DNA from: Archangium violaceum
GTDB taxonomy: Bacteria; Myxococcota; Myxococcia; Myxococcales; Myxococcaceae
NCBI RefSeq assembly: GCF_016859125.1
Contig: NZ_CP069338.1
Span: 62,001 to 126,000 of the forward strand
Length of the DNA: 64,000 bases
Reading direction: 5' to 3'
In this document: one piece after another, positions 1-24,721 of the stretch
Position numbering within the stretch: the stretch's first letter is position 1
How the letters are laid out: every line of letters begins with the position of its first letter
Translations under genes and position numbers: made by a program
Notes under the pieces: generated by a model
What the model saw: the letters and a program-made list of their open reading frames with translations, nothing else
Told to the model about the DNA's origin: nothing
The model's database searches: none

Positions 1-507
1 GCGCGCTCCCGCCCTCCTGGCTCGTGAAGAGGCCCAGCTCGACTACTGGCGCCGCCAGCTCTCCGACGCTCCCCGCCTCCTCCAGCTTCCCACCGATAAG
101 CCCCGGCCCTCCGTCCTCTCCGACAAGGGCGCCTCCACTTCTTCCTTCCGCCTCCCGGACTCCCTCTCCCTGGCCCTGGGTGCCCTGTGCCGCCAGCACC
201 AGGTCACCCCCTTCATGGTCCTCCACGCCGCCTTCTCCGCCCTGCTCTTCCGCTACTCCGGTCAGCAGGACATGTGCGTCGGCGTCCCCGTCTCCGGCCG
301 CACCCACCCTTCCTCCGAGTCCGTCGTCGGTCTCTTCGTCAACACCGTCGTCCTCCGTTCCCACCTCCACCCCGACGCCTCCTTCTCCTCGCTTCTCTCC
401 CAGGTTCGCTCCACCTCTCTCGACGCCTTCGCTCACCAGGACGTCCCCTTCGAGAAGCTCATCAACTCCCTCGGCGTCGAGCGCAGCACCAGCCACTCCC
501 CGCTCTT
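1..507 (+). repeat. Copy 1 of near-identical C-domain segment in the NRPS gene
   Basis: This segment aligns without gaps to 3148-3654 at an offset of 3147 bp (1049 codons) and is almost base-for-base identical, including synonymous positions. Identity drops sharply after about base 507, where the two C domains diverge. It looks like recent module duplication or gene conversion. A shorter second homogenised stretch lies at the A/PCP junctions (about 2330-2530 and 5465-5665). Confidence 0.85.
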
Positions 508-9960: not shown

Positions 9961-10620
9961 ATGAAGCTGGCCGGAGCAGTGGTGCTGCTGGTGCTCCTCA
10001 CCGGATGCGCGACAACCCAGGGGACAGGAGGCTCTGGCCCTTCACCCTCACCGGGGATCAAGCCCGCAGTGAAGAAGGAACTGCCCTGGTTGAACGTGCC
10101 GGGCGGACGGATGAAGACGACCCTCTTCTACGGCCCCTGGCAGTGCCGCCGGGAGTTCATGAACGGGTGTCAGCGGGAGTGCGCCAGCAAGGGCCATACG
10201 CGAAAGGGGTGCATGTGGCTGGCCGACTTCAAGTTCGATTGGGAGGGAAGGCTCGCCCTTCTACCCGTTCCCGTCAAAGCCGGGAGCCGCTACGGCATCT
10301 ATCACTGCTGTTGCGACTACCCTACGTTGACGAAGGAGCAGAACAAGGCCAGGCGTGACCAATGGAAGGCCGCGATGGAGTCCTTCCGTCAGAGTTGGAG
10401 TAAACGGTTCGGTGACTGGCCCACGGCCAGCACCGGCGTCAACTGGCCGGGGCACCATATCCGCGACCTCTGGCACGGCGGCGATCCGGTGGACCCTAAC
10501 AATATCTTCCCCGTGCAGCCGGGCGTTCACGACGAGTACAACAGGGAATACCCCGCTTGTTACAGCGGCCAGTTCCCCTGGAATACAGTGGGTCCCGACT
10601 TGCCCTACACGGACAATTGA
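9961..10620 (+). CDS. SitA-like lipoprotein toxin with C-terminal GHH-type nuclease signature
   Basis: 219 aa. The ATG at 9961 was chosen over one at 9889 because it follows an AAGGGGA ribosome-binding site and begins a clear lipoprotein signal (MKLAGAVVLLVLLTGCATT; lipobox LTGC, so Cys15 would be lipidated). Residues ~45-125 form a Cys-rich region (QCRREF, CQREC, GCMWLADFK, YHCCCDYP). The C-terminus carries WPGHHIRDLWHGG...NNIFPV...VHDEYN, the signature of the GHH branch of HNH/endonuclease VII-like toxin nucleases. The SUKH immunity gene starts within the stop codon. Known family: myxobacterial SitA toxins are lipoproteins with variable C-terminal toxins, passed between siblings by TraA/B outer-membrane exchange and followed by a SitI immunity gene. 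Assignment to SitA is inference from lipidation, size and linkage. No SitB-like gene is present upstream. Confidence 0.72.
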   Translation: MKLAGAVVLLVLLTGCATTQGTGGSGPSPSPGIKPAVKKELPWLNVPGGRMKTTLFYGPWQCRREFMNGCQRECASKGHTRKGCMWLADFKFDWEGRLALLPVPVKAGSRYGIYHCCCDYPTLTKEQNKARRDQWKAAMESFRQSWSKRFGDWPTASTGVNWPGHHIRDLWHGGDPVDPNNIFPVQPGVHDEYNREYPACYSGQFPWNTVGPDLPYTDN

Positions 10621-11117
10621 TGATGCCCACCCCTCTCAGCAGCCTGCTCGAAGAGGTCTCCCGCGAGCACTTCCCCCATCCTCCCGCCACGCCTGGGGAG
10701 ATTGAAGAGTTCGAGCGCCGGGTGGGCTGGAAGCTAGACCCCGACCTGCGGGCCTTCTACCTGCATTGCAATGGAGCCGAACTGTTCAAGCGGCTACCGA
10801 ACACCCCGTATCGTCTCCTTTCCCTGGCCGAGATCATCCGGGCACGGGTGGCTATCTACGGGGAAGATGATGACAAGTGGGGCCCGGCCACGATGTACAC
10901 CCTCTGTGACGTACAGGACGGGGATTACGTACTGGTGGACGTAGCCCGCCAGGAGAACGATCGCTATCCCCTGACGGACGGCTACCATGAGGCGTGGCCG
11001 AATCCGGAGTACTGCGGTCCGGTCGCCAGTTCCTTCTCGGAGTTCTTGGAGAAGGCGCTGCGCAGCAAGGGCCGCTTGTTCTACTTGCAGTCGACCAGCC
11101 AGGAGCAGCCCGGCTGA
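10620..11117 (+). CDS. SUKH (SMI1/KNR4) family immunity protein
   Basis: 165 aa, cytosolic, with no signal peptide. Start codons ATGATG at 10620/10623 overlap the TGA of the lipoprotein gene, so translation is probably coupled. SUKH features: an N-terminal helix followed by TPGEIEEFERRVGWKLDPDLRAF, then YLHCNGAELF, LLSLAEI and a C-terminal SFSEFLEKAL helix. Length is normal for SMI1/KNR4 domains. SUKH proteins commonly neutralise nuclease toxins encoded immediately upstream, which fits the GHH lipoprotein here. The partner relationship is inferred from the overlap. Confidence 0.8.
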   Translation: MMPTPLSSLLEEVSREHFPHPPATPGEIEEFERRVGWKLDPDLRAFYLHCNGAELFKRLPNTPYRLLSLAEIIRARVAIYGEDDDKWGPATMYTLCDVQDGDYVLVDVARQENDRYPLTDGYHEAWPNPEYCGPVASSFSEFLEKALRSKGRLFYLQSTSQEQPG

Positions 11118-11194: not shown

Positions 11195-11980
11195 TTACCG
11201 CAGCCGTCCCTCGAGCCACGTCTTGGTGAAGATGTTGGTATCGAGGGGCGCGAGCTGCACATCCTCGTAGCGCACGATGATCTGCGTGCCCTCCTCCTCC
11301 TCCAGCTCGAGCACCTCACGGTAGTGGTAGACGGACTCGCCCGTGGCCGGGTCCTTGAGCCGCTGGTAGCTGCGGACGACATCGGTGCGCAGCGTCCGGC
11401 CCGACGGCGCGTACCCCACGCGCTTGACGATGTTGTTGTCCGCGTCGAGCCACAGCCGCAGCAGGGGGAAGCTGACCTCGGCGCTCTCCTTCGCCGTCAG
11501 CAGGAGCTTGCGGAAGGGGGTGCCGCGGATCGTCTCCACGCCGTCATCCTTCGCGGTGTAGTCCTCGGCCAGACGCGAGCGATCGAAGTCCCCCTCGCAC
11601 GCGATGGTGCCCACGATGTTGGCGCGCCGGGTGGTGCGTACCCACTGGCCCGTCGAAGCGCTGTACTCCCACAGGTTGCCGCCGATGCGCAGGTACCCGC
11701 CGCCCGCCAGGTTGCGCGGCTGGGTGATGAGCATGAGGAAGTTCTGCGCCGAGTCGCGGCGGTAGACGTGCATCTCGATGGCTCGCTCGACGCCGTCCTT
11801 GCGGATCTCCCGGATGCGCACGACGCCCTTGTAGTCACTGGCCATGGACATCCGCTTGTCGATGAGGCGCAGGATCTCATCCGGCGAGGGCGGTGGCTTC
11901 GCATCAGCGGCGCCCGCCACGGCCGGCAGCAGCAGGGCGAGCACGAGGGCACAGGCGGACACCAGGGCACGCGGGTTCAT
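11195..11980 (-). CDS. LolA-like outer membrane lipoprotein-sorting family protein
   Basis: 261 aa with a cleavable signal peptide (MNPRALVSACALVLALLLP...AGA). The body has the incomplete beta-barrel pattern of the LolA-like COG2834 family: KGVVRIREIRKDG, MHVYRRDSAQNFLMLI, LRIGGNLWEYSASTGQW, then VSFPLLRLWLDADNNIVKRV and a late IIVRYEDVQL strand. Known relatives bind lipid or lipoprotein acyl chains in the periplasm. The ATG at 11980 overlaps the stop of the permease gene before it (ATGA), so this is the last gene of a coupled permease-permease-carrier operon reading on the minus strand. It probably shuttles a lipidic cargo handed over by those permeases. The cargo is unknown, but the upstream biosynthetic gene is a candidate source. 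Confidence 0.8.
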   Translation of the reverse strand: MNPRALVSACALVLALLLPAVAGAADAKPPPSPDEILRLIDKRMSMASDYKGVVRIREIRKDGVERAIEMHVYRRDSAQNFLMLITQPRNLAGGGYLRIGGNLWEYSASTGQWVRTTRRANIVGTIACEGDFDRSRLAEDYTAKDDGVETIRGTPFRKLLLTAKESAEVSFPLLRLWLDADNNIVKRVGYAPSGRTLRTDVVRSYQRLKDPATGESVYHYREVLELEEEEGTQIIVRYEDVQLAPLDTNIFTKTWLEGRLR

Positions 11981-13278
11981 CACAGGGACTCCATGGCGGA
12001 TCGGGGAGGGAGGGAAGCGGCACGGGCCGCGGGGAGGATGGAGGCAAGGGCCGCGCCCACGGTGACGAGCACCACGGCGGACACGGCCTGCGACAGCCGA
12101 GGTGCCAACGGGAGGGTGTCGCTGAAGAGGAAGCCGGCGAGCGCCTCGGGCAGGGAGACGGAGCCCTGGAGGAAGGTGCACAGGGCCGCGGCCACGCCAG
12201 CCCCGAGGCTGGAGGCCAGCAGCCCCAACAACAGGCCCTCCAGCATGAACATGCCCACCACGGCGGTGCGCTGCATGCCCATGGCGCGCAGCGTGCCGAT
12301 CTCCCGCGTCCGCTCGCGGACGGCCACGCTCAGTGAGACGAACAGTCCCACCACGACGATGCCGAAGACGATGGCGCCCACCAGCACCGTCAGGGCGGAG
12401 AGCCCGTCGGTGATGAAGGCGAGGAAGGAGGACTCGTCCTCCCAGGTGGAGACGTCCAGCCGCTGGCCGGCCCAGCCCTCGCGCAGCAGCGGCGTCAGCT
12501 TGTCCCCGTACGCCTCGTTCGAGGCCGGCAGCACCTCGAAGCCCGCCTGGCGCAGCGCCTCGCGGAGACGTCCGCCCAGGGCGTCCACGTCCGTCGTCTC
12601 ACCACAGGCGAGCTGGAACACGCCCGCGGCCTCCGGGCGGTACCCGCCGAGCTCCCGCAGAGTGGCGTTGGAGACGAGGATGCCGGCGGACTCGCCCAAC
12701 AACCCGGCCCGCTCGGTGATGGCGACCACCTCGACGTCCAGCGCGTTGCGCTTGCCCCCCGCCGTCTGCGTGAAGAGGGTGGTGATGTCCCCGCGCTTGA
12801 CGCGGAGCCGCTCGGCGAGCTGCGTGGAGAGCGCCACCGTGCGCGGCTTCTCCAGCGACTGGAGCGCGCCGTCCTTCACCTTGAAGTGGGACAGCGAGTC
12901 CTGCTCGCGCGCCACGTCCAGGCCCATCATGAAGGAGCCCACCCGGTGGCGTCCGGCGCCCGCGGTGGCCTGACCGCGGCCCCGCTCGCGCAGGCGGCAC
13001 TCCGCTGGGAGCAGGGGCTCGACCACGGCGCGAACCCGGGGGGCCTCGCCGATGACCGGGGCGATGGAGTCGGGGTGCACCTTGAAGTAGCCGCCGATGT
13101 TGAGGTCCCCGCTGAGGAACGTCGTCACCACCTCGCGCTGGGTGGCGGCGACGCCCGTCTTCAGGGCCATCACCCCCACGAGCAGCGCGCTGGCGCCGGA
13201 GATGACGCACAGGAGCAACAGCCCCCGCTCGCGGTGGAGCAACAGGTTGCGAAGGGCGATCCGGAGCACGGCCAGCAT
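11980..13278 (-). CDS. FtsX/LolC-E-like ABC transporter permease
   Basis: 432 aa. Topology is one N-terminal membrane helix (LLLLCVISGASALLVGV), a large periplasmic domain (~residues 45-285) and three C-terminal helices. The coupling motif REIGTLRAMGMQR is the FtsX/MacB signature. The start at 13278 (MLAVLRIALRNLL) was chosen because it overlaps the preceding stop (ATGA). It probably forms a heterodimeric permease with the 13278-15320 product, as LolC/LolE or MacB-like pairs do. No ATP-binding subunit is encoded next to it or elsewhere in the window, so an ATPase must come from another locus. Downstream gene: LolA-like carrier. Confidence 0.88.
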   Translation of the reverse strand: MLAVLRIALRNLLLHRERGLLLLCVISGASALLVGVMALKTGVAATQREVVTTFLSGDLNIGGYFKVHPDSIAPVIGEAPRVRAVVEPLLPAECRLRERGRGQATAGAGRHRVGSFMMGLDVAREQDSLSHFKVKDGALQSLEKPRTVALSTQLAERLRVKRGDITTLFTQTAGGKRNALDVEVVAITERAGLLGESAGILVSNATLRELGGYRPEAAGVFQLACGETTDVDALGGRLREALRQAGFEVLPASNEAYGDKLTPLLREGWAGQRLDVSTWEDESSFLAFITDGLSALTVLVGAIVFGIVVVGLFVSLSVAVRERTREIGTLRAMGMQRTAVVGMFMLEGLLLGLLASSLGAGVAAALCTFLQGSVSLPEALAGFLFSDTLPLAPRLSQAVSAVVLVTVGAALASILPAARAASLPPRSAMESL

Positions 13279-15320
13279 CAGTCCTCCCTCTGGCGCATGG
13301 CCACGATGGGGGTGACCGAGCTGCCGCGCCACGCGGGCACCAGCGAGGCGCCCATCACCACGGCCGAGCACCCCAGCCCGACCACGAGCGCATGCCAGAC
13401 CTCGAGCCGCGGGTACAACACCGGGCCTCCCAGGAAGAATTGGAGGGACTCGTCGCGCACGGCGAGCCCCTGACCCGCGACGCCCAGCAGCACGGCGGCG
13501 CCCAGGGCGATGCCGAGCACGCTCCCCAGCGCGCCCAGCAGCAGCCCCTCCACGAGCAGGCCGGTGAACACCTCACCGCGCTGCATCCCCACCGCGCGCA
13601 GGGTGCCCACCTCACCGACCCGCTCCCGCGCCAGCAGCAGCAGCGTCCCGGTCGACACCAGCAGCACGAACAGCCCCACCAGCAGCGCGAGCACGAACAG
13701 CAGCACCCTCAGCATCCCCACCAGGCCACTGACGAAGCCGCCCACGTCCTCCCAGCTCGCGAGCTCCAGCGGAAGCTTCTGCTCCTGGGCGAGCAGGCGG
13801 ATGCGCTCGGCGACGGCCTCCGACTGCGCGCCGGGCTTCAGCACGAGGGCCGCATGCAGCACCCCCTCCTTCTGCTCCGCGTCGGTGAAGCGATCCGCGG
13901 GCCCCACGTCCTGGCGCTCGAAGACAGGCTCCGCGCCACCGGGAGCCACGGGCTCCTCGTCGATCACCGTCGGCAGACCGAACTCCGTGGCCGACACCTC
14001 CTGCGCGGGGCCGGACATGCCGAGCGAGTCCAGCAGCCGCCGGGCCTCCTCCGTCTGGGAGCGCGTCATCCGGTCGGCCAGCAGGCGCGCGGTGACGAGG
14101 TCCACCAGGCTGGTGGCGTTGGCCCGGCTGCCATCCCCACCGAGCCCGCGGAAGCGGAACGTCCCCCACACGCGCACGGGCACACCGGCCCCCATGGCCA
14201 GGGCACCTCGCAGCACGAGCGTGTCTCCAGGCCGGACGCGGTACAGCGGCAGGTGGGGCGCCAGCTCTCCATGGAAGAGCGTGTAGCGCGTGTCGAAGTT
14301 GCCATCGTCGAGCGTGAGGAACTCCTTCAACAGTGCCTCCAGCGCTCCCTCGTGCCCCAACTGGCGCGCGAGCACGGCCCGCAGCGCGGAAGCCCGCTCC
14401 ACGTCGAGCCGGGACAGCAGATCCGGAATCTCCGCCAGGTTGCGCTCCACCAGCGTCCGGGCCCGCTCATCGTCGGCGAAGGTGCTCCCCCGCTCGCGCT
14501 CGCGCTTCAGCTCGTCGAGCCGGGAGGCGATGGAGAGCTTGAAGTGCTGCTCGTAGGCCCCGTGCCCCAACAGCAGTCCACGGGCGCCCGGGGGCGGCAG
14601 CTCGCCCGTGACCAGCTCGAAGCGAGAGAAGGCCCGCGCGAACAGCGGCATGTCCGTGCCCAGGTAGTCCACGTCGATGGAGGCGCCCTCCCCCGCCTGC
14701 CGCGCCACGCGGTTCTCGAGGAACTCGAGCGCCGGAAACGGCTCCTCCGCGAAGCGCGCCCAGAACCGCTCCGAGACGGCCTCCTCCAGCGCGCGGAAGT
14801 CCTCCTGGGCGGACGCATCGTTCGCGAACGCCTCCTCCCGCCGGTGCGCGTCCCGGGCCACGCGCTCCAGGGTATGCCGCAGGTCCTCCGCGAGCCGACC
14901 CAGCCGGGCCCGACGCTCCTCGGAGGCGGGCTCCCTCGCCACGGCCCGCACCGCGGCGAACCGGTCATCCAGGTAGTTGCCGCGGAACACCGTGGCCCCA
15001 CCTCCCTCGAGCGGCACCACCTCGGCCACGCCCTCCACCGCGCGCAGCCGCGTCTCGAGCGCGGCGTAGTCGGGCAGCGGGACGAGCTCCGGCGAGCCTC
15101 CGGGGCCCGGCAACATCTGGGGCACCCCGGCCGAGGCGGAGTTGAACACCTGCAGATCGCCGGCTCCGCTCTCGATGAGGCTCTTGCGCGTCCCATCGGC
15201 GATGCTGCCCACGAGCGCGAGCCCCAGGGTGAGCAGGCCCGCCATCCAAGCCGCGAGCAGCGCGACGAGCCAGCTCCGAGGGCGCGCCAGGATGCTTCGC
15301 AGCGCGAACGACAGCACCAT
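13278..15320 (-). CDS. FtsX/LolC-E-like ABC transporter permease with large periplasmic domain
   Basis: 680 aa, much longer than its 432-aa partner. One N-terminal helix (LVALLAAWMAGLLTLGLAL) is followed by a ~400-residue extracytoplasmic region with charged, coiled-coil-prone stretches (ELKRERERGSTFADDERART), then three C-terminal helices with the FtsX motif GEVGTLRAVGMQR. The ATG at 15320 (MVLSFALRSILARPRSW) begins the conserved N-terminus. It is the first of three ATGA-overlapping genes. It starts 91 bp after the 1314-aa A-KR-ACP gene on the same strand, so both could share a transcript. Confidence 0.87.
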   Translation of the reverse strand: MVLSFALRSILARPRSWLVALLAAWMAGLLTLGLALVGSIADGTRKSLIESGAGDLQVFNSASAGVPQMLPGPGGSPELVPLPDYAALETRLRAVEGVAEVVPLEGGGATVFRGNYLDDRFAAVRAVAREPASEERRARLGRLAEDLRHTLERVARDAHRREEAFANDASAQEDFRALEEAVSERFWARFAEEPFPALEFLENRVARQAGEGASIDVDYLGTDMPLFARAFSRFELVTGELPPPGARGLLLGHGAYEQHFKLSIASRLDELKRERERGSTFADDERARTLVERNLAEIPDLLSRLDVERASALRAVLARQLGHEGALEALLKEFLTLDDGNFDTRYTLFHGELAPHLPLYRVRPGDTLVLRGALAMGAGVPVRVWGTFRFRGLGGDGSRANATSLVDLVTARLLADRMTRSQTEEARRLLDSLGMSGPAQEVSATEFGLPTVIDEEPVAPGGAEPVFERQDVGPADRFTDAEQKEGVLHAALVLKPGAQSEAVAERIRLLAQEQKLPLELASWEDVGGFVSGLVGMLRVLLFVLALLVGLFVLLVSTGTLLLLARERVGEVGTLRAVGMQRGEVFTGLLVEGLLLGALGSVLGIALGAAVLLGVAGQGLAVRDESLQFFLGGPVLYPRLEVWHALVVGLGCSAVVMGASLVPAWRGSSVTPIVAMRQRED

Positions 15321-15411
15321 TGCCGATGACTCCTGAAAGCGCGCCGCCGCCGCACCCGGACCGCATGGAGCCCCCGGGCGCGTGGCGGAACTGGGGGGGA
15401 CCGAAATCCTA

Positions 15412-18400
15412 TCAGGGGGCGTGCAGCGCGTGCAGCAGCAGGGCCACCTGTTCATCGGACAGACGGGTCACGTCCACCTGACTGGGGTCCACGGACTGGC
15501 GGATGTAGGCCGCCAGCCGGGAGACGGAGGGGTATTCGAACACGGCCACCTCGCGCAGCCGCAGCCCGGTGCGCTCGTTGACGCGCGCCATCACCCGGGA
15601 GGCCTGGAGCGAGCTGCCCCCGAGGGAGAAGAAGTCCGAGCCCGCGCCCACCGCGTCCACGCCGAGCACCTCGCGGAAGGCCTCCGCCACCACCTGCTCG
15701 AAGGGCCCCAGGGGCGAGTCCGCCGCCCCACCGAAGGCCTCCGCGGCGAGCGCCTGGCGATCCACCGTCCCCTCGGGAGACCTGGGGAGGGAGGGCACCG
15801 GGTGGAGCACCGCGTCGGCGCGCAGCCCTTCCTCCGGGAGCCGTCCACCGGCCTGGGGGACGACGAAGAGGTGGGCCTGCTCCAGGGGCACGCCGGAGCC
15901 CAGACCGGCCCCGCGCCAGGGAAGGGCCGAGCCCTCCACGCCCGCCAGCACCTGCGAGGCACCCGACTCCACCGCGAGCAGCAGGGCGGCCAGCGCCTGG
16001 GGCGGCTCGAGCATGCGATAGCCCGGGGGCGAGGCCTTCAAGTCCCTCGCCATGCCCGTGCCCCGGATGGAGCTGAACGACACCGCCACCGCGGACCGGC
16101 CCTCGGCGGCGAGCGCCTGCGCGAAGCGATCGATGAAACCCGAGGCGGCGCAGTAGCTCGCATGCAACCCCGCCCCGAGCGTTCCCATCAGCGAGGAGGT
16201 GAAGACGAGCGGGGAGCGTGGCCGCACGCGGAAGACCTCGGCGAGGGCCACCGCGCCGAGCACATGCGCCGCCGCGTCCCGCACGAGTGTCTCCGCCGTC
16301 TGGCTCTCCAGGGGAAGAGGCTCCAGGGTGCCGGCGAAGTGGAAGGCACCGTCGAGGGGACGGCCCCGCCGGAGCTCCGCCTGACGCACCACCTCCTGGA
16401 GCTTCGCCGCGTCCGTGATGTCCACCGGCACGTACTCCGCCGCGCCGAGCTCGCGCTCGACCGCCTCGGCGACGGCATCCCGCTCCCGCCGTCCCACCAG
16501 CAGCAACCGGGCACGGAGGCTCCGCCGCAGGTAGCGGGCCCAGGCCTGCCCCACCCCGCCGAGCGCGCCCGTCACCAGATAGAAGCCCTCGCGCTGGAGG
16601 CGGCGCGGCGACTCCACCCGCGAAGGCACCCAGGGCGAATAGGCCCGCTCCCAGCGCCGGCCGTCGTGCCAGGACACCTCGCGCGCGGCACGCGGAATCG
16701 CGAGCTCCCCGGCCACACACCGGGCGGCGGCCTCCTCGCCAGGAGGAACCCAGAGGACCCGAGCCTCCAGGCCGGACACCTCGGCCATGGCGGACCAGAG
16801 CAGCCCTGGCACCAGGAGGTGGGCCGAACCCGTGGCGAGCGCCCCTTCCGGAGACGGGACCACGGCCCAGAGCCGGACGGGCCCATCCGCGGCGGGACGA
16901 GCCAGGGCCCGCACCAGACGCAGCAATGGCGCGACGGCCTCCACCAGGGTGGTCCGGTCCATGCGCCGCGTCCCCTCGCTCCTGCCCACGGCGTACACCA
17001 CCTCCGCGACGGACTGTCCTCGCGCCGCGCTCGACTCGAGGGCTTGCGTCAGGGCCTCACCGGAGCCCGGCTCCACGTGGAGGAGCTGCCTGCCGGCGAC
17101 GTGCGAACGAAGGGCCCCGGCGAAACCGGCGTCGGAGACCACCAGGAGGGGACCGGATCCAGCCACCGTCTCCGAGGCCCGCCGGGCGCGAGGTACCCAA
17201 CGCGGGACGGCCAGACACCGGGGAAGGGTCGCGGGACCACCGAGGTAGCGCTCGGCCTCACGGCGCTCCGCGGCCAGCTCCCCGGCCTCGAAGCGGCGCC
17301 GCACCTCCGTGCGCCCGCGCTTGCCCAGCTCCGTCTTGGGAATCTGATGACGGGCGAGTGGCACCAGGTGACGGACCTGGAGTCCGAGTGTCCGGCCCAC
17401 GTGCTCGCGAATGGAGCGCAGCAACACCCCGAGCGGGGGCGCGTCCGGAGAGGGAACGAAGCCGACGAGGAGCTCATCCGTCTGCGTCCCACCCACGCGC
17501 GTGGGGCACGCCACGGAGAACGACGGCAGCACGCCCGGCACCTGCTCCACCACGGATTCGATCTCCTGGGGGTAGACGTTGTTGCCGTTGATGATGAGGA
17601 CTTCCTTCTGCCGCCCGGTGATGGCCATCTGGCCGTCATGGATGATGGCGAGGTCCCCCGTGCGCAGCCAGCCGTCCGGAGTGAAGGACTGGGCGTTGAT
17701 GGCCGCGTCATCCATGTACCCGGTCAGCACGGTGACGCCGCGCACCTGGAGGTGGCCCACCGCGCCCTGGGGCACCACCGCGTCCTGCTCATCGACGATG
17801 CGGAGCATCGAGCCCGCGGGAGGCGGACCGAGCAGGACGCAGGACTCCTCCTCGGGAGTGCGCACCCCGCGCGTCAGGGTGTGGAACGAGGAGGTTTCCG
17901 CCATGCCCCACCCGGGGCAGATGGCATCCTGGCGCAACCCCTCACGCTCGAGCAGCGAGGTGAAGCGCCGCAGGGTGTCGGGGATGATGGGCTCACCCCC
18001 GCAGGCCAGCACGCGAACGCGCGAGAGATTCCAGGCGCGGCGCTCGCCGCGGGAGAGCCGGTCCACGACGAGGCCATAGGCGAAGTTGGGAGCCCAGCTC
18101 ATGGTGCCGCCGAGCTCGGAGAGCAGGTCCAACCACCGCAACACGTCGCCCAGCACGTAGTCGCGCGAGACGAGCACATGAGACGTGCCCATGCGCAGAC
18201 TCGTGAGGTGGGGGTAGGCCAGTCCGGCGACATGGTCGAGCGGCATCCAGCTCACGCCGAGATCCTCCTCGGTGTACCAGCCGCCGGCCCGCATCGCATC
18301 GCACATGGCGAGCAGGTTGTCCTGGGTGAGGAGCACGCCCTTGGGGCGCCCGGTGCTGCCGGAGGTGAACGACAGCACGGCGGGAGAGGACGGAGCGTGC

Positions 18401-19356
18401 GCCACCGGCTCACCGGCGGTGCTCCGGTCCAACGACGAGAACGAGACGGCTCGCAGGCCCAGGGACTCCAGGGCGGAGACGGCCTGGGAGCCCGTGAGCA
18501 CGAGCGGTCCCCCCAGACGCTCCGACACGGAGAGGATGCGGACGACACCGGCATGCGAGCGCTCGAACGAGGAGGGCCACGCCATGGGCACGGGCACCAT
18601 GCCGCCGAGGGTGCAGCCCCAGAAGGCGCGCACGTAATCACCGGGCCGGTCCATCACGAACATCACCCGCTCGCCCGGCTTCAACCCCAGCGCCCGCAGC
18701 CCACCGAGGAGCCGGAGCGCCTCCTGCCAGAGCTCGGCATAACGCAGCGTCTCGCGCCGCCCCTCCAGGTCGATGAAGGTCACGGTGCGATCGGGATGGA
18801 CCTCCGCCGCATGCCGCAACAGCCCGCCGAGGTCGTCCGGGGCACCCGGAGGAGAACGACGAGGCTCCCCCACGAGGAAGGACGGCTGCCCAGCCCCCCC
18901 GCCAGCGGGACGGGAGGAGACATGCGCCGCCGAGGCCTCGCTCGCTTCACCTGCCCCTGGCCGAAGGGACTCGGGAAACAGCTCGTCGAAGGGCTCGAAG
19001 CGCTCGCTTCTCGATGCGGGGCCGGCCAGCGCCACCGCTTCGTGACCGGCCTGATGGAGCCGCGCCTCCAACCACTGGAGCCGGAGCGAGGTGGCGGGAG
19101 TCAAACGGCAGAGGGCTTCCCGATCGGGCTCCCCCGACTCGAGCACGGGAAGCGAATCCATGAGCGCGACGCACGGGGAGTCCTCGCCCAGGCGCTCCCG
19201 GAGAAAAGCCTCCAACGCCTCCGCCCGGAGCGCGCGCCACGGCACCACCCAGGCCACCGCCGCCTCCCCCACCTCCGTCACACAGACATCCTGCACTCGG
19301 GAGTCCGTCAGGAGGAGCTGCTCGACTGCGCCGGCCGACATCGTTCGTGGAGCCAT
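15412..19356 (-). CDS. Stand-alone adenylation-ketoreductase-carrier megasynthase (A-KR-ACP)
   Basis: 1314 aa. Residues 1-~85 resemble an extra A-domain C-terminal subdomain (VLESGEPDREALCRL). Residues ~165-690 are an acyl-AMP ligase: SFTSGSTGRPKGV at ~325, WMPLDHVAGL, GWGMAETS, DGWLRTGDLA and GRQKEVLIINGNN. Residues ~700-1170 are a PKS-type ketoreductase with its structural half; the NADPH motif TGALGGVG is at ~927, followed by FTSSLMGTLGAG and the ASYCAAS Tyr at ~1068. Residues ~1220-1295 are a carrier domain with SLGGSSL (Ser ~1248). There is no ketosynthase, condensation, reductase or TE domain. By domain logic it activates a carboxylic acid, loads it on its own carrier and reduces a keto group. 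Substrate and release are unknown. It is divergent from a methyltransferase and lies 91 bp upstream of the permease/LolA-like operon. Confidence 0.88.
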   Translation of the reverse strand: MAPRTMSAGAVEQLLLTDSRVQDVCVTEVGEAAVAWVVPWRALRAEALEAFLRERLGEDSPCVALMDSLPVLESGEPDREALCRLTPATSLRLQWLEARLHQAGHEAVALAGPASRSERFEPFDELFPESLRPGAGEASEASAAHVSSRPAGGGAGQPSFLVGEPRRSPPGAPDDLGGLLRHAAEVHPDRTVTFIDLEGRRETLRYAELWQEALRLLGGLRALGLKPGERVMFVMDRPGDYVRAFWGCTLGGMVPVPMAWPSSFERSHAGVVRILSVSERLGGPLVLTGSQAVSALESLGLRAVSFSSLDRSTAGEPVAHAPSSPAVLSFTSGSTGRPKGVLLTQDNLLAMCDAMRAGGWYTEEDLGVSWMPLDHVAGLAYPHLTSLRMGTSHVLVSRDYVLGDVLRWLDLLSELGGTMSWAPNFAYGLVVDRLSRGERRAWNLSRVRVLACGGEPIIPDTLRRFTSLLEREGLRQDAICPGWGMAETSSFHTLTRGVRTPEEESCVLLGPPPAGSMLRIVDEQDAVVPQGAVGHLQVRGVTVLTGYMDDAAINAQSFTPDGWLRTGDLAIIHDGQMAITGRQKEVLIINGNNVYPQEIESVVEQVPGVLPSFSVACPTRVGGTQTDELLVGFVPSPDAPPLGVLLRSIREHVGRTLGLQVRHLVPLARHQIPKTELGKRGRTEVRRRFEAGELAAERREAERYLGGPATLPRCLAVPRWVPRARRASETVAGSGPLLVVSDAGFAGALRSHVAGRQLLHVEPGSGEALTQALESSAARGQSVAEVVYAVGRSEGTRRMDRTTLVEAVAPLLRLVRALARPAADGPVRLWAVVPSPEGALATGSAHLLVPGLLWSAMAEVSGLEARVLWVPPGEEAAARCVAGELAIPRAAREVSWHDGRRWERAYSPWVPSRVESPRRLQREGFYLVTGALGGVGQAWARYLRRSLRARLLLVGRRERDAVAEAVERELGAAEYVPVDITDAAKLQEVVRQAELRRGRPLDGAFHFAGTLEPLPLESQTAETLVRDAAAHVLGAVALAEVFRVRPRSPLVFTSSLMGTLGAGLHASYCAASGFIDRFAQALAAEGRSAVAVSFSSIRGTGMARDLKASPPGYRMLEPPQALAALLLAVESGASQVLAGVEGSALPWRGAGLGSGVPLEQAHLFVVPQAGGRLPEEGLRADAVLHPVPSLPRSPEGTVDRQALAAEAFGGAADSPLGPFEQVVAEAFREVLGVDAVGAGSDFFSLGGSSLQASRVMARVNERTGLRLREVAVFEYPSVSRLAAYIRQSVDPSQVDVTRLSDEQVALLLHALHAP

Positions 19357-19458
19357 GTGCCGGACATCGTAGCGCCACCGTCACGCCCACGCACCCGAGC
19401 GGGATTGCACGAAGCCGGGAGGAGAAGCGACACTCGAGTTCCCCCGAACGAGGTTTCG
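19357..19458. promoter_or_regulatory. Divergent promoter region of the A-KR-ACP locus
   Basis: This 102-bp gap separates the two divergent arms of the biosynthetic locus and must carry both start regions. I see no convincing -10/-35 pair or operator. The plus-strand start has GAACGAGG shortly upstream of ATGATG at 19459/19462. Confidence 0.4.
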
Positions 19459-20970
19459 ATGATGGCTCCGCGCAGCGCCACGCCCCCCGCCCTGGCGAAG
19501 TCCCTGCATTTCTGGGCGCGCAACGCCTCGAATGAATCGGCGCTGCTGCGCACCTCGCTGAGCGTGGGTCTCTTCGACGCACTGCCAGTGGAGGGCGAGG
19601 GCACGCCGGTGACGGTGAGACAGCTCGCGGAGCAGGTGGGGGCCACGGTCCGCGGCGTGCGCTCACTGGTTGAACTGCTGGTGTGCCTGGGACTGGTGCA
19701 CATGGACGATGCGCGTGGCCTCACGCTGGCCCGTCCGGTGGCGGCCTTCCTGAGGGACGCCCCCTTCAAGGAGAGGCTCCACGACGTGGCGCGGTGGTGG
19801 GGGCCCGTGGGCCTCCTGGAGGACGCGGTGCGGAGCGGCGAGGCGGTGGAGCACGGAGGCCAGCGCTGGGACGTGCTCGACCACTACCGGCGGCTCTTCC
19901 TGGAAACGACGCCCGCCCCCTCACCGGAGGCGGAGGACTTCTTCGACCGCTTCGCGCGCAGCAGCGCACGCACCTGGCTCCTGGTAGCCGTGGGCCGGAT
20001 GGGACTGCTCGATCAGCTCGCCACGGGCCCTCAGGAAGAAGCGACGCTCCGAGCGGCGATGGGAGCCAGCGAGCGGGGCCTGCGCACGGTGCTGGACGTG
20101 CTGGCCCACCTGGGGCTCACCCGGACCGAAGGCACCACGGTGCGCTTCACGGACGAGGCCCGGCAGGTGCTCGAGGGCAAGGCATTGCAGTACCTGCTCC
20201 GCTCCTTCTCCGTCTCCGCGCAGTACTGGGAGGCGCTGGAGCGGCTCGACGAGACGGTGCGGCACGAGCGCTTCATCCTGGACCTGAAGGATCCCGAGGT
20301 GAGCCGGCGCTTCTACGCGGACAACTCGAACCAGATCACGGCGGTGTTCGCCTCGCACTTCCAGCTCAGCCGGCGCGCGGCCTCGACGATTGCCCAGGTA
20401 CGGCCGCTGACGGGCGCCTCGGTGCTCGACATCGGCACGGGCTCGGGTGTGTGGGGCGTGGCCTTCGCGAGGACGGAGCCCACGGCGCACGTCACCTACT
20501 TCGACCAGGAGGCGGTGCTCGCGCAGGCGAAGCGCAATGTGGAACAACTCCAGGCGTTGAGCCGGGCACGCTTCTGGGCGGGCAACCTCTTCACCCAGGA
20601 TTTCGGGAGCGCCGCGTACGACTTCATCATCCTCCCGCAGGTGCTCAACGTGCTGCGGCCCGAGTCCCTGCCGGACATGTTCCGCCGCGTGGCGCGCGCG
20701 CTGAAACCAGACGGCATCCTCGTCATCGCCGAGTACGTGCTCGACGAGCGGCGCGACGGCCCGCTGGACCACCTCTACTTCGGGCTGCGGCGCTTCCTCA
20801 CCAACGAGGGGGATCTGCTCTCCCACTCGGAGTACCGCGAGCTGTTGGCGGACGTGGGCCTCACCGCGTCGGTCTGCCTGCCGCTCCCCACGCAGGAGCT
20901 GCTCCTCGCCGCGCGCTCCGGGGTGACGCTGCCCACGCGGCTCGCGCCTACCACGCGCACGGGCGTCTGA
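19459..20970 (+). CDS. SAM-dependent methyltransferase (plant-type O-methyltransferase fold), paralogue 1
   Basis: 503 aa, about 150 longer than the usual 340-350 aa of this family. Two winged-helix/dimerisation-like segments precede the catalytic part: residues ~15-100 (SLHFWARNASNESALL... QVGATVRGVRSLVELLVCLGLV) and ~170-250 (LLVAVGRMGLLDQLATG... ERGLRTVLDVLAHLGL). The SAM site is VLDIGTGSGVWG at ~321, followed by VTYFDQEAVL and DFIILPQVLNVL. Its closest visible relative is the product of 23225-24721, which has the same order of segments. It probably methylates the product, or an intermediate, of the adjacent A-KR-ACP enzyme. The start ATGATG follows a GAGG site; no in-frame ATG nearby gives a more coherent N-terminus. 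Confidence 0.87.
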   Translation: MMAPRSATPPALAKSLHFWARNASNESALLRTSLSVGLFDALPVEGEGTPVTVRQLAEQVGATVRGVRSLVELLVCLGLVHMDDARGLTLARPVAAFLRDAPFKERLHDVARWWGPVGLLEDAVRSGEAVEHGGQRWDVLDHYRRLFLETTPAPSPEAEDFFDRFARSSARTWLLVAVGRMGLLDQLATGPQEEATLRAAMGASERGLRTVLDVLAHLGLTRTEGTTVRFTDEARQVLEGKALQYLLRSFSVSAQYWEALERLDETVRHERFILDLKDPEVSRRFYADNSNQITAVFASHFQLSRRAASTIAQVRPLTGASVLDIGTGSGVWGVAFARTEPTAHVTYFDQEAVLAQAKRNVEQLQALSRARFWAGNLFTQDFGSAAYDFIILPQVLNVLRPESLPDMFRRVARALKPDGILVIAEYVLDERRDGPLDHLYFGLRRFLTNEGDLLSHSEYRELLADVGLTASVCLPLPTQELLLAARSGVTLPTRLAPTTRTGV

Positions 20971-21069
20971 CGCACCCCGTCATCCGCACGCCAGGGCGCT
21001 GCTCACTTGCTCAGAATCCGAGCGGCGGATTAGACTCGAATTACACTTTTTTGCCCCCCCGGAAGCTCC

Positions 21070-22158
21070 ATGCGCCTGGCGCCGCTGGACAGCCCTCCCC
21101 GTACGAGCGATGGCCTGGCGCCCGCCGAGCGGGAGCGCTCCACCTCGGTGGCGGCACGGCTGAGAGCGACGTATGCGCGAGAGGTGGCCCGGATGGGCAA
21201 CCACGCGCACTCGACAGCCGGGGGAATCGGACACCTGGCCTTGCACCTCGGGCTCGGCCTGGGAGCGGCCCTCGGAGCCCACGCGCTGCTGGAGACGTGG
21301 CCCGTGGCGGGCTGGACGCTCTACCCGCTGGTGGCCTTCTTCATCGCCACCCGCTTCCGTGCGCTCGGCAACATGCTGCACGAGGCGTGTCACGGCATGT
21401 TCGTGCGCGGCAAGCGCTTCAACCGCGTCTTCGGGCACCTGCTGGCCATCATCGATCTGACCGCGCTCGAGCCCTACACGCGCGAGCACTTCACGCACCA
21501 CCAGCACCTGGGAGACCCGGAGAGGGATCTGGACTTCGTGCCGCGCCGCCCGTTCGGGTTCGCCGAGCCCACGGAACACTTCGCGCGGCGCCACCTGTTG
21601 CGACCGCTGCTGCTCATCCACCTCCCGTCCTTCGTGCGCCCGGTGCTCTTCAGCCGCACGGATCCATGGCCGGTGACGCTGTGCAGGTGGGCCTTCGTGG
21701 CGGGGCTGCTCGCGCTGGCGCACTGGGGCGTGGGCTGGAGGGCCTTCGGGCTCTTCTACGTGCTGCCCTACTTCGTGGCCTACCAGATCATCCGCTACTG
21801 GTCGGACGCGGCGGATCACGCGGGCATCATCGGCTCGGCGGACGAGTTCCACCGCTCGCGCAACCACATCTTCGCGTGGGGGTGGCTCAACCGGATGCTC
21901 TTCCCACGCAATGACCAATACCACCTCACGCACCACCTCTTCCCGGCCGTGCCCACCACCGCGCAGGGCCGGGTGCACGAGCTCCTCATGAAGGATCCGG
22001 AGTACGCGGAGCGCCCGCACTCGCTCTCCGCGCTGCTGTCTCGAGCGCGTCCAGGGCTTCGGGGAAGTGGTCCGGAGACATGCCCAGACCCAGACGGAAA
22101 CCGTGGCCACGCTCCAGCGGGTGGGCCCCCGCGGGGTCGCCGTGCTCCATGGCGCTGA
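21070..22158 (+). CDS. Membrane fatty acid desaturase/hydroxylase family protein
   Basis: 362 aa. The three histidine boxes of membrane di-iron desaturases are present: HEACH (~104), HFTHHQH (~140) and HLTHHLFP (~285). There is an additional SDAADHAG at ~240, with hydrophobic helices between the boxes. Such enzymes insert a double bond or hydroxyl into an acyl chain using O2. The Arg/Pro/Gly-rich tail after ~325 is unusual and is encoded antisense to the end of the convergent aminotransferase gene (173-bp overlap), so the tail may have arisen by stop-codon loss. It lies 99 bp downstream of methyltransferase 1 on the same strand. In context it probably modifies the acyl part of the locus product; a role in general lipid metabolism is the alternative. 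Confidence 0.86.
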   Translation: MRLAPLDSPPRTSDGLAPAERERSTSVAARLRATYAREVARMGNHAHSTAGGIGHLALHLGLGLGAALGAHALLETWPVAGWTLYPLVAFFIATRFRALGNMLHEACHGMFVRGKRFNRVFGHLLAIIDLTALEPYTREHFTHHQHLGDPERDLDFVPRRPFGFAEPTEHFARRHLLRPLLLIHLPSFVRPVLFSRTDPWPVTLCRWAFVAGLLALAHWGVGWRAFGLFYVLPYFVAYQIIRYWSDAADHAGIIGSADEFHRSRNHIFAWGWLNRMLFPRNDQYHLTHHLFPAVPTTAQGRVHELLMKDPEYAERPHSLSALLSRARPGLRGSGPETCPDPDGNRGHAPAGGPPRGRRAPWR

Positions 22159-23188
22159 GCGGCAGGACGAACACCCCGGCCTCGCCGAGCGCCTGGAGCT
22201 TCGCCTCGAACTCCTTCGGGCCGGCCACGCCGCTCACGCCGATGCAGGTGACGAGTCCTCCCACCGGAGCCACGCCGTACACGCCTTGGGAGCGCTCCAG
22301 GAACGAGGAGAGGAGACGCCGGTTCCGCATCCACTCCTCGCGGGCCTGACGCAAGGCGGGACTGCCGAGATCCTTGAGCACCTCGAGGGAGATCCACTCG
22401 GCGACCGGGTTCACCGTGTGCGTGGTGTAGTTCTTCTCGTTCTGCACGCGCGCGAGCATGGCGGTATCGCCCACGCACCAGCCGATGCGCAGACCGGGGC
22501 AGCCCAGACACTTGATGAAGGAGCCGGTGACGAAGGTCCTGGCGCCGGGCCGGTACACGGTGGCGCCCAGAACCTCCGTGTCCGAGGAGAGGAAGCGATA
22601 GTGCTCGTCACCCACGAGCGTGGCGCCGGAGCGCTCCGTCCAACGGGAGATGCGCTCCAGCAACTCCGGGTCCAGGACCAGGCCACTCGGGTTGTGGGGG
22701 TTGTTGATGACAACCACGTCCGGGGAATCGCGCTCGAGCCGTGCGAGCCACTCGTCCGCGTCGATGGAGGGCACGCCGCGCAAGTCCCAGCGCACGGGCA
22801 GGCGGACGAGCTCCGCGCCCTGCCGCATGGGGAGCTCATAGAGGAGCTGGAAGGCCGGCCAGGCGAGGGCCACCTTGCGAGGGCGGAGCTGCCGGAAGAG
22901 GAGCAGCAGGGCCTCGCTGGTGCCGGTGGTGATGAGGACGTTGTCGCGCGTGGCGCCGGGGTGCATGGCGGCCACGAGGTCGCGCAGGTCGGCACGGCCC
23001 CAGTTGGGGCTGTCACGCAGCAGGGTGGAGAGGAACGTGTCCAGGGCGCGCTGGGGGCTGACACCGGAGCCGGTGAGCAGCTCTCCAACGGTGCGGGGCC
23101 GGGCTCCGGACTCGCCAAGGTTGTAGCGCGCGGTGAAGCGCGAGCCCTCGAGGTAGTCCTCCATGAAGAACGAGCGAAGGAGTTCCAT
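21986..23188 (-). CDS. PLP-dependent class I/II aminotransferase-fold enzyme
   Basis: 400 aa. Fold-type I features: TTGTSEALL (phosphate-binding region), NNPHNPSG (pyridine-ring Asn), GDEHYRF (Asp/Tyr), the Schiff-base Lys in GSFIKCLGCPGLRIGW (~226), and the substrate Arg region FRLGLGMSP. The general plan (a short N-terminal segment ending in YNLGESG, then LRDSPNWGRADLRDL) resembles small-molecule biosynthetic members such as capreomycidine-synthase-like enzymes. That resemblance is from memory and weak; transaminase, decarboxylase or cyclase activity cannot be told apart. It lies 36 bp downstream of methyltransferase 2 on the minus strand, so it is likely co-transcribed, and its 3' end overlaps the desaturase gene. 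Confidence 0.85.
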   Translation of the reverse strand: MELLRSFFMEDYLEGSRFTARYNLGESGARPRTVGELLTGSGVSPQRALDTFLSTLLRDSPNWGRADLRDLVAAMHPGATRDNVLITTGTSEALLLLFRQLRPRKVALAWPAFQLLYELPMRQGAELVRLPVRWDLRGVPSIDADEWLARLERDSPDVVVINNPHNPSGLVLDPELLERISRWTERSGATLVGDEHYRFLSSDTEVLGATVYRPGARTFVTGSFIKCLGCPGLRIGWCVGDTAMLARVQNEKNYTTHTVNPVAEWISLEVLKDLGSPALRQAREEWMRNRRLLSSFLERSQGVYGVAPVGGLVTCIGVSGVAGPKEFEAKLQALGEAGVFVLPLSAMEHGDPAGAHPLERGHGFRLGLGMSPDHFPEALDALETAARRASAGAPRTPDPS

Positions 23189-23224
23189 GTTCCTCCAGAC
23201 GGGACGGTGGAAGGGAAGACAGCG

Positions 23225-24721
23225 TCAGCGGACCGGGGCTCCGTCCGCCCAGGAGACGTCACCGCGCGAGGCGATGACGACCTGCTGGATGGGCATCTCG
23301 AAAGCACGGGAGGACAGGAGTCCCACGGGCTCGAGCAGCCGCCGGAAGTCGGGCATGGACAACACATCGCCCTCGTTCGACACGTAGCGGCGCAGTGAGA
23401 AGTAGAGCGCGTCCAGGGGACCATCGCGCCGGTCGGTGAGCAGATAGCCCGAGATGACGAGCAACCCCTGGGGACGCAGGGCGCGGGCGAGCTTCGCGAA
23501 GAGTCCCGGCAGCGCCTCGGGAGGAAGCGCGGGGATGACCTGGGGCAGGAGGATGACGTCGTACTGGGACTCGCCGTAATCGACGGAGAGGCAGTCGCCG
23601 GCCCAATAACGCGCACGCCCCTCCAGCTTGAGCTTCGCGATGTTGGGCTTCACCTGCTCCAGGACGTGCTCGGAGTCCAGGTAGGTAACGTGGAGCGAGG
23701 GCTCGGTCAACCCGAAGGCGGCGCCCCAGACACCCGAGCCGGTGCCCACGTCGAGAACACGTGCGTCCTTCAGGGGGCGCATGCGGGCGACGAGCTCCGC
23801 GGCCTTGCGACCCAGCTTCACATGCGAGGCGAAGATGCCGGTGATGCGCGAGGCATTGCGCTGGTAGATGCGCCTGGCGGTCTCGGGGTCGCGCAGATCC
23901 AACCGGAACACGCGTTGGGTCACGGCCTCATCCAGGTGCCCGAAGGCCTCCCAGTAGTCCATGGTGGCCGGGAACGAGCGCAGGAAATACGGCAGGCTGC
24001 TCGCGTCCAGGGAGCGGCTGGCCAGCTCGGAGAAACCGAGGGCCTCGCCCTCCTGCCGGACGATCCCCATGGACCCGAGGACCCCGAGCAGGACGCACAG
24101 CGCCTCGGGCTGGGAGCCGGTTGTCTTCGCCAGCTCCACGAGGGGCCGGGGCCCGGACACCAGCGCCTCCAACAACCCCACCTCACCGCTCGTCACGAGC
24201 GCCTGGGTGCGCAGGAAGTTGCGGGCGGCACGATCGTCGTAGTCCGCGGCGAGGACATCCTGCTCGGGCACGCGAGGCGCCAGGAACTCCTGCCGGTACC
24301 ATCCGAGCAGCTCACGGGACCCACCAGACCCATCCACTGGCGCACCGGTGCGAACGGCCTCGGGCAGCAACGCGGACACGGACCACCAGCTCCGCGCCTC
24401 GCGCATCCGGGCGACGAACTCGGGCCGACGAAGGAAGGCACTCGCCGCAGGGAGCGAATAACCCCTCCCCTCCTCCAGCCGGACGAAGCCGAGCCCCACC
24501 AGCGGCTCGATGACGGAGCGAGTCCCTCGCACGGTGCCACCGATACGCTGAGCGAGCTCCTCCAGGGACACAGGAGTGGGGCCCTCGTCCGGGAGGTGCT
24601 CGAACATTCCGAGCGCGAAAGCGCCCAGGAGCGCCGCCGACTCATTGCTCGCGTCACGAGCCCAGAAGTTGAGTTGCTGGACGAAGGCTGTCTGGGAGGA
24701 CGCGGGGGTGGACTCGGCCAA
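23225..24721 (-). CDS. SAM-dependent methyltransferase (plant-type O-methyltransferase fold), paralogue 2
   Basis: 498 aa. It has the same layout as the 19459-20970 product: FWARDASNES near the N-terminus, a first winged-helix segment (IGGTVRGTRSVIEPLVGLGFV), a second one (LVTSGEVGLLEALVSG), a DYWEAFGHLDEAV linker, then SAM motif VLDVGTGSGVWG, VTYLDSEHVL and DVILLPQVIPALP. The shared stretch RRDGPLD-LYF-LRR and many other positions show a duplication within this locus. Two methyltransferases suggest two methylations, or O- versus C/N-methylation, on one scaffold; regiochemistry cannot be read. It is the first gene of a minus-strand pair with the PLP enzyme. The ATG at 24721 is the only start giving the paired N-terminus. 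Confidence 0.87.
   Translation of the reverse strand: MAESTPASSQTAFVQQLNFWARDASNESAALLGAFALGMFEHLPDEGPTPVSLEELAQRIGGTVRGTRSVIEPLVGLGFVRLEEGRGYSLPAASAFLRRPEFVARMREARSWWSVSALLPEAVRTGAPVDGSGGSRELLGWYRQEFLAPRVPEQDVLAADYDDRAARNFLRTQALVTSGEVGLLEALVSGPRPLVELAKTTGSQPEALCVLLGVLGSMGIVRQEGEALGFSELASRSLDASSLPYFLRSFPATMDYWEAFGHLDEAVTQRVFRLDLRDPETARRIYQRNASRITGIFASHVKLGRKAAELVARMRPLKDARVLDVGTGSGVWGAAFGLTEPSLHVTYLDSEHVLEQVKPNIAKLKLEGRARYWAGDCLSVDYGESQYDVILLPQVIPALPPEALPGLFAKLARALRPQGLLVISGYLLTDRRDGPLDALYFSLRRYVSNEGDVLSMPDFRRLLEPVGLLSSRAFEMPIQQVVIASRGDVSWADGAPVR

Follow-up and report, generated by a model that had tools for sequence, protein, structure and literature searches.

A nonribosomal peptide synthetase cluster family of Myxococcaceae with a stand-alone A-KR-ACP protein and a GntB/GntC-like gene pair as variable cassettes

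Genes at the locus

A 64,000-nucleotide stretch of the Archangium violaceum chromosome (the window; G000:C1:62001-126000 of a 12.68-Mb single-contig genome) carries, at positions 11195–24721, a block of genes around a stand-alone protein with adenylation (A), ketoreductase (KR) and acyl carrier protein (ACP) domains. The original prediction for this block was an acyl-modifying locus. Comparison of related genomes places it instead, as judged from sequence, as the tailoring arm of a conserved cluster family of a known kind, centred on a nonribosomal peptide synthetase (NRPS) and equipped with two plug-in cassettes: the A-KR-ACP protein, predicted to be a loading module of the NRPS, and a gene pair predicted to modify arginine.

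The 1314-aa A-KR-ACP protein, a predicted trans-acting NRPS loading module, is encoded on the minus strand at 15412–19356. A Pfam scan located in it an AMP-binding domain at residues 181–547 (17716–18816), a KR domain at residues 924–1097 (16066–16587) and a PP-binding carrier domain at residues 1222–1285 (15502–15693), with a predicted C-terminal docking tail, L[ST]DxQVxLLLxxL, behind them (15424–15462), all on the minus strand. The same scan detected no condensation (C), ketosynthase (KS) or thioesterase (TE) domain in the protein, in agreement with its first description. Downstream on the same strand, after a gap of exactly 91 bp as reported earlier, lie the genes of two FtsX-type permeases known from family annotation, FtsXa (680 aa, 13278–15320) and FtsXb (432 aa, 11980–13278), and of a 261-aa LolA-like periplasmic protein (11195–11980; PF17131) with a solved relative in the LolA superfamily (3buu); successive genes of this trio overlap by 1 bp each. 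Methyltransferase (MT) gene MT1 (19459–20970, plus strand) and the gene of a predicted GntB-like membrane di-iron arginine hydroxylase (21070–22158, plus strand; FA_desaturase fold with three His boxes) diverge from the A-KR-ACP gene. Facing them are MT2, a paralogue of MT1 (23225–24721, minus strand), and the gene of a fold-I enzyme dependent on pyridoxal phosphate (PLP), predicted to be a GntC-like cyclase for hydroxyarginine (21986–23188, minus strand). All of these genes and their layout are as first described. The GntB-like open reading frame (ORF) of the window extends about 38 residues beyond the stop of all its orthologues and shares 172 bp with the convergent GntC-like gene; among orthologous pairs such an overlap is slight or absent.

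A large NRPS gene at 2–9727 (plus strand) had been left unconnected to this block. Domain annotation identifies it as the C-terminal half of an ORF of 6638 aa that extends 10,190 nt beyond the upstream edge of the window, ends at 9727 and comprises six modules of C, A and thiolation (T) domains followed by a TE domain. The specificity codes of its A domains, extracted by alignment, predict six residues: DMEVAGAIC, DVEPIGMLG, DAKDLGVVD, DIEVVGTIN, DVALQGGCF and DAESAGVIT. DAKDLGVVD reads as Glu/Gln-like and DAESAGVIT as arginine-like, and DIEVVGTIN is read as the code for the product of the GntB/GntC-like pair.

Conservation across Myxococcaceae

MT1 was used as a query against 96 genomes of the family and was found in 33 of them, belonging to three genera of the list, with both MT paralogues present in every one. 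FtsXa, FtsXb and LolA accompany the MTs wherever the contig reaches. The NRPS, in each genome that shows it, belongs to the same cluster and converges on the LolA gene. The gene order recurs in Archangium, Myxococcus, Pyxidicoccus and Citreicoccus and so is not a product of chance. The invariant core of the cluster family is formed by MT1, MT2, the FtsX/FtsX/LolA genes and the NRPS.

Two cassettes vary around this core independently of each other. The A-KR-ACP gene is present in 17 of the 33 clusters and missing from 16, and the GntB/GntC-like genes behave as a unit, 23 clusters having both and 10 neither; all four combinations occur (15, 8, 2 and 8 genomes). GntB-like genes are carried by named Archangium, Myxococcus, Pyxidicoccus and Citreicoccus. 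In the 17 genomes with an A-KR-ACP homologue, both MTs are always at hand and the permeases are found wherever the contig reaches; synthetase homologues regularly lacking them did not turn up, and the proposal that these genes form one conserved system holds. A full cluster with both cassettes is found in Myxococcus xanthus AM003 (species as recorded; L112), which may suit as a genetic host. In the open-access literature searched, no product was assigned to this cluster family, and no paper was found that joins myxobacteria to enduracididine biosynthesis or to guanitoxin enzymes.

The A-KR-ACP protein as a loading module

In a phmmer search against the PDB, the top match of the A-KR-ACP protein was StsA (6ulw), an A-KR-peptidyl carrier protein (PCP) of keto-acid depsipeptide synthesis, aligned over the A, KR and carrier domains; the A-PCP protein McyG came second, with an A-domain score near that of StsA. 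As in StsA, the KR is inserted between A domain and carrier and an AMP-binding_C remnant precedes the A core (residues 11–59, 31.8 bits against a cut-off of 24.5); a second AMP_C-like remnant after the KR, LPRSPEGTVDRQAL, was recognised by eye only. The StsA module is embedded behind a C domain, whereas the protein studied here stands alone and has replaced the Lys and Asn of the KR. In amino-acid-activating A domains, Asp235 anchors the amino group of the substrate. This position is Ala in all 17 A-KR-ACP orthologues, which leaves no amino-acid anchor, and keto-acid A domains lack Asp235 (PMC10143770). The A10 Lys is invariant in the orthologues, as is the carrier Ser where covered.

The start of the NRPS covaries with this cassette. 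Wherever the A-KR-ACP gene is present the NRPS starts with a C domain (14 of 14 readable clusters, including G036, on a second contig), whereas wherever it is absent the NRPS starts directly with A-T (9 of 9), raw counts that are not independent observations and do not include the Myxococcus llanfair... strain, whose contig ends before the NRPS start. A natural exchange is seen in Myxococcus sp. RHSTA-1-4 (G129 = L110 = G148), where a 631-aa A-T protein occupies the slot between MT1 and FtsXa and the NRPS is C-first. The last 115 residues of this protein are 52–64% identical to the carrier and tail of A-KR-ACP and 40–47% identical to NRPS carriers; its A domain is 42–49% identical to NRPS A domains and 25–28% identical to that of A-KR-ACP. 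By these identities the protein is a natural chimera that joins an amino-acid A domain to the carrier and tail of A-KR-ACP. The motif L[ST]DxQVxLLLxxL stands at the end of all A-KR-ACP proteins examined and of the RHSTA-1-4 protein and, in the regions scanned, occurs in no other protein above 500 aa, from which we infer that the tail is a docking helix. Because of this comparative evidence, the type of NRPS start together with the RHSTA-1-4 chimera, which we regard as decisive, the A-KR-ACP protein appears to be a trans-acting starter of the neighbouring NRPS.

The starter A domains found in its place carry the codes DAFFLGVTFK, DAFWLG[CA]VFK and DALWLGGVFK, which we take to be Ile/Val-like, and DACTI[AV]AVCK, which we take to be Phe-like (Stachelhaus codes), with DIWEIGADTK in G002. 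Since these replacement starters mostly have Val/Ile/Phe-like codes, the comparison suggests that A-KR-ACP takes a keto acid corresponding to one of the hydrophobic amino acids. The A-domain score of McyG, close to that of StsA, would also suit a protein that loads a non-keto carboxylic acid such as a McyG-like aryl acid and leaves its KR unused, but this is quite improbable given that the KR is retained and under selection and that the substitutes mostly correspond to amino acids matching common keto acids.

A KR on an A-ACP protein had been thought to be known only in company with C domains. The architecture is in fact already known, since the published AerA of the aeruginosins is a stand-alone A-KR-ACP, with phenylpyruvate as the acid that it loads and reduces (PMC10143770). 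Like the protein described here, the cyanobacterial AerA is separate and lacks C, KS and TE domains; it starts an NRPS, as predicted for the present protein, and does so with a reduced alpha-keto acid. Compared with AerA by description, not by sequence, the present protein is distinguished by its myxobacterial origin, an altered KR tetrad, the conserved C-terminal tail, probably a different acid, and the natural exchange for an A-ACP protein in a sister cluster. A 35% relative of A-KR-ACP is embedded as an elongation module in a protein of about 2450 aa with the order A-T-C-A-KR-T in G033 and G040 (L055/L056, L057/L058); it is a conventional depsipeptide-type module.

The GntB/GntC-like pair and its adenylation code

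In guanitoxin biosynthesis, GntB and GntC convert L-Arg through (S)-gamma-hydroxy-Arg to L-enduracididine. The gene first described as a desaturase encodes a protein whose top NCBIfam model, at 134.8 bits, is the arginine gamma-hydroxylase GntB, the runner-up reaching 33 bits. The enzyme first described as a PLP enzyme has GntC, the gamma-hydroxyarginine cyclase, as its top model (183.9 bits, next VioD at 152.8). The His boxes of the GntB-like protein read HEACH, HFTHH and HLTHH, and their histidines are invariant in nine orthologues. GntC (8fft) is also the best PDB sequence match of the GntC-like protein (151 bits, against 83 for OrfR). The active-site residues of GntC include E9, S25, N52, T84, K219 and H250 (PMC10367076); E9, S25, F108, D186, K219, H250 and R346 are kept in the GntC-like protein and T84 is Ser. 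Best models, His boxes and most active-site residues thus agree with the guanitoxin enzymes, from which the pair differs in its scores below the equivalog cut-offs, in Asp at position 52 and in being predicted to feed an NRPS, not a small guanidine compound. The MppP/Q/R proteins of mannopeptimycin biosynthesis in actinobacteria serve the same predicted kind of peptide building block, enduracididine, by other enzymes than the membrane di-iron hydroxylase and single PLP cyclase predicted here.

In the Citreicoccus-type genomes G021 and G036 the local GntC-like gene has been lost and another GntC is encoded some 12 kb upstream of where the NRPS starts. The replacing protein scores above the equivalog cut-off (448.5 bits in G021, 446 bits in G036), reaches 372 bits to 8fft and, in G021, has Asn at position 52. 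That one GntC has been exchanged for another inside a single cluster is, in our view, the best evidence for a GntC-type reaction, and the GntB/GntC-like pair probably makes a ring form of arginine. Searching for GntC by bit score alone proved uninformative, and the GntC-model matches in G059, G063 and G066 were ordinary aminotransferases.

Presence of the pair is coupled, by comparison of the NRPS sequences, to a single A-domain code. D[IM]EVVGTIN was found in 19 of the 19 NRPSs from clusters with the pair, where visible, and in none of the nine (six complete, three partial) from clusters without it, counts that again are not independent observations. The variant DMEVVGTIN is confined to G021 and G036, all other NRPSs of this group having DIEVVGTIN; the position of the domain among the modules differs between genomes, and two genomes have two copies. 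The last A domain, with the arginine-like code DAESAGVITK, was considered as the user of the GntC product and rejected, being present in every NRPS with a visible end, including those of clusters lacking the pair. When independence was judged on a tree of MT1 and MT2, the association of A-KR-ACP with a C-first NRPS and that of the pair with its code each showed three independent switches, all of them concordant.

Methyltransferases and transport genes

The paralogy first noted for MT1 and MT2 (METHYLTRANSFERASES) is borne out by an identity of about 45%. Both show the Methyltransf_2 fold preceded by N-terminal dimerisation domains, which MT1 has in tandem, and they match O- and C-methyltransferases; the catalytic His of classical O-methyltransferases (VLHxW region) is Asn in all MT1 and Pro in all MT2 sequences aligned. 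Action on the A-KR-ACP product, as first suggested, and a role as keto-acid methylases for the starter were rejected in view of their retention in 16 clusters without A-KR-ACP, and action only on the product of the GntB/GntC-like pair in view of their retention in 10 clusters without that pair. Since they are kept without either cassette or both, the MTs are expected to have a target that all products share.

The FtsX and LolA genes likewise persist without either cassette and therefore do not serve the starter. They resemble the LolCDE/LolA system in combining two FtsX permeases with a LolA-like carrier but differ from it in that no ATPase gene (cognate LolD) was found in the 11195–24721 block. 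Their substrate is probably not a lipoprotein, and export of the peptide is a plausible role. A paralogous operon of the order LolD-like ATPase-FtsX-FtsX-LolA, which shares the two permeases and carrier and has the ATPase, lies at L141:6753-11699 (G027:C1, ~2.83 Mb) together with a 534-aa partner that is 37% identical to the protein whose gene immediately precedes the NRPS in A. lansinium. Other Myxococcaceae also have FtsX paralogues, and operons of the L141 type are possibly a general myxobacterial export system.

The FA_desaturase and aminotransferase folds and the position of the FtsX/LolA genes 91 bp downstream of A-KR-ACP were what spoke for a stand-alone pathway whose acyl product, be it methylated, reduced, aminated or unsaturated, would reach the outer membrane through Lol-type genes. 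Such a pathway can hardly be credited now that A-KR-ACP is seen to covary with the NRPS start and the GntB/GntC-like pair with an NRPS A-domain code, the MTs and permeases being kept where A-KR-ACP is missing. A fatty-acid or acyl-lipid reading was rejected on the GntB/GntC identity, the cluster comparison and the code covariation.

Proposed pathway and points against it

We consider it highly probable that the NRPS is loaded in trans with a keto acid and that a GntB/GntC-like arginine cassette is read by its D[IM]EVVGTIN domain. A-KR-ACP would activate a hydrophobic alpha-keto acid, with a branched-chain type as the best guess; its KR may turn this into an alpha-hydroxy acid on the protein's own carrier, and the putative docking helix at its C-terminus would serve to pass the starter in trans to the 6638-aa NRPS, at its first C domain. 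Free L-arginine would be hydroxylated at the gamma position by the GntB-like enzyme and then probably cyclised by the GntC-like PLP enzyme to an enduracididine-type arginine, which the D[IM]EVVGTIN domain would build into the peptide. MT1 and MT2 would methylate something shared by all products and not the starter. The predicted product has an N-terminal alpha-hydroxy (or alpha-keto) acyl group and six residues, is released by the TE domain and carries at most two methyl groups.

Several observations weigh against this scheme. Only three independent pairs stand behind each association, so that a sign test is unable to reach 0.05. The KR has Lys replaced by His and Asn by Ser/Thr throughout the orthologues, so that reduction can be called no more than likely. 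Both enzymes of the arginine cassette score below the NCBIfam equivalog cut-offs (134.8 against 380 bits for GntB, NF041365; 183.9 against 415 bits for GntC, NF041364), and ordinary aminotransferases reach 300–380 bits with the GntC model. Finally, the N52 position is Asp in 21 of 22 GntC-like orthologues.

The state of the KR decides whether the peptide would begin with a hydroxy or a keto acid. Relative to StsA, where both replaced residues are kept, the Lys-Ser-Tyr-Asn tetrad is incomplete in 17 of 17 orthologues, as would be expected if the domain were a dead structural relic and the alpha-keto acyl starter were left unreduced, the product then being an alpha-ketoamide peptide. We think this less likely than reduction, because the Ser, Tyr and NADPH motif are kept in all 17 and the ratio of nonsynonymous to synonymous substitutions (dN/dS) points to similar purifying selection in the catalytic part of the KR (0.09–0.33) and in the A core (0.13–0.42). 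Reduction of the keto-acyl starter is thus likely, an unreduced keto starter being a serious alternative.

Asp at position 52 bears on the identity of the arginine derivative. The N52D mutant of GntC lost most of its activity (PMC10367076), so that an enduracididine-type product can be called only probable for the window-type enzyme. Asp also occupies the corresponding position in OrfR, the capreomycidine cyclase, both enzymes of the pair fall short of the equivalog cut-offs, and in a structural ranking the predicted GntC-like model had GntC at the top but not separated from the next entries (Z 29.2 for GntC, 29.0 for 3op7, 28.1 for OrfR), the order of the folds being all that was taken from a weak AlphaFold model (pLDDT 62.6). 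With cluster and roles unchanged, the pair could accordingly make another arginine, be it a capreomycidine-type six-ring, a different diastereomer or a linear gamma-hydroxy- or dehydroarginine; to this we give a tentative but appreciable chance. The GntC-specific motifs DEHYRFL, KCxGCxGLRIGW and YTTHT (containing H250), however, are kept here and different in OrfR, the partner hydroxylase is GntB-like and not a VioC-type beta-hydroxylase, and the substitute enzyme of the Citreicoccus-type clusters is an above-cut-off GntC with Asn52.

If an enduracididine-type residue is indeed what the pair makes, about a quarter of the surveyed Myxococcaceae species would produce it for an NRPS through a GntB/GntC-type route. 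Residues of this type are part of antibiotics, teixobactin among them, and making cyclic arginines by chemical means is costly. The cluster family would also be a natural experiment in NRPS engineering, revealing which carrier and tail accept another starter domain and which adenylation code pairs with which building-block cassette. Chances seem evenly balanced for the fullest form of the proposal, a plug-and-play NRPS family in which A-KR-ACP and A-ACP are swapped on one carrier and tail, the GntB/GntC cassette is gained and lost together with its code, and the products are the first peptide family outside cyanobacteria to receive an enduracididine-type residue by the GntB/GntC route.

Neighbouring genes

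Upstream of the NRPS, the genome of the window encodes an ABC-2 transporter, cupin/JmjC-like proteins, a Rieske oxygenase and PmbA/TldD-like proteins; some of the genes on this side, conserved across the family, are likely cluster members. The cupin/JmjC-like (Cupin_8) proteins (L059:15566-18342, L060:5738-8289), whose number and arrangement differ among genomes, are candidates for residue hydroxylation. A PmbA/TldD-like protein (L059:18358-19698) and a companion gene ('WFVERRE') starting at L059:19922 lie near the NRPS in most clusters and could be maturation proteases of the product. The Rieske oxygenase (L060:4432-5439) is conserved among the clusters that were read on this side, and two lipoprotein-like genes often accompany it. 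A SUKH/SMI1-KNR4-type gene (10620–11117) separates the NRPS and LolA genes in the window, whereas A. lansinium and a relative, G003, have a homologue on the opposite side of the NRPS.

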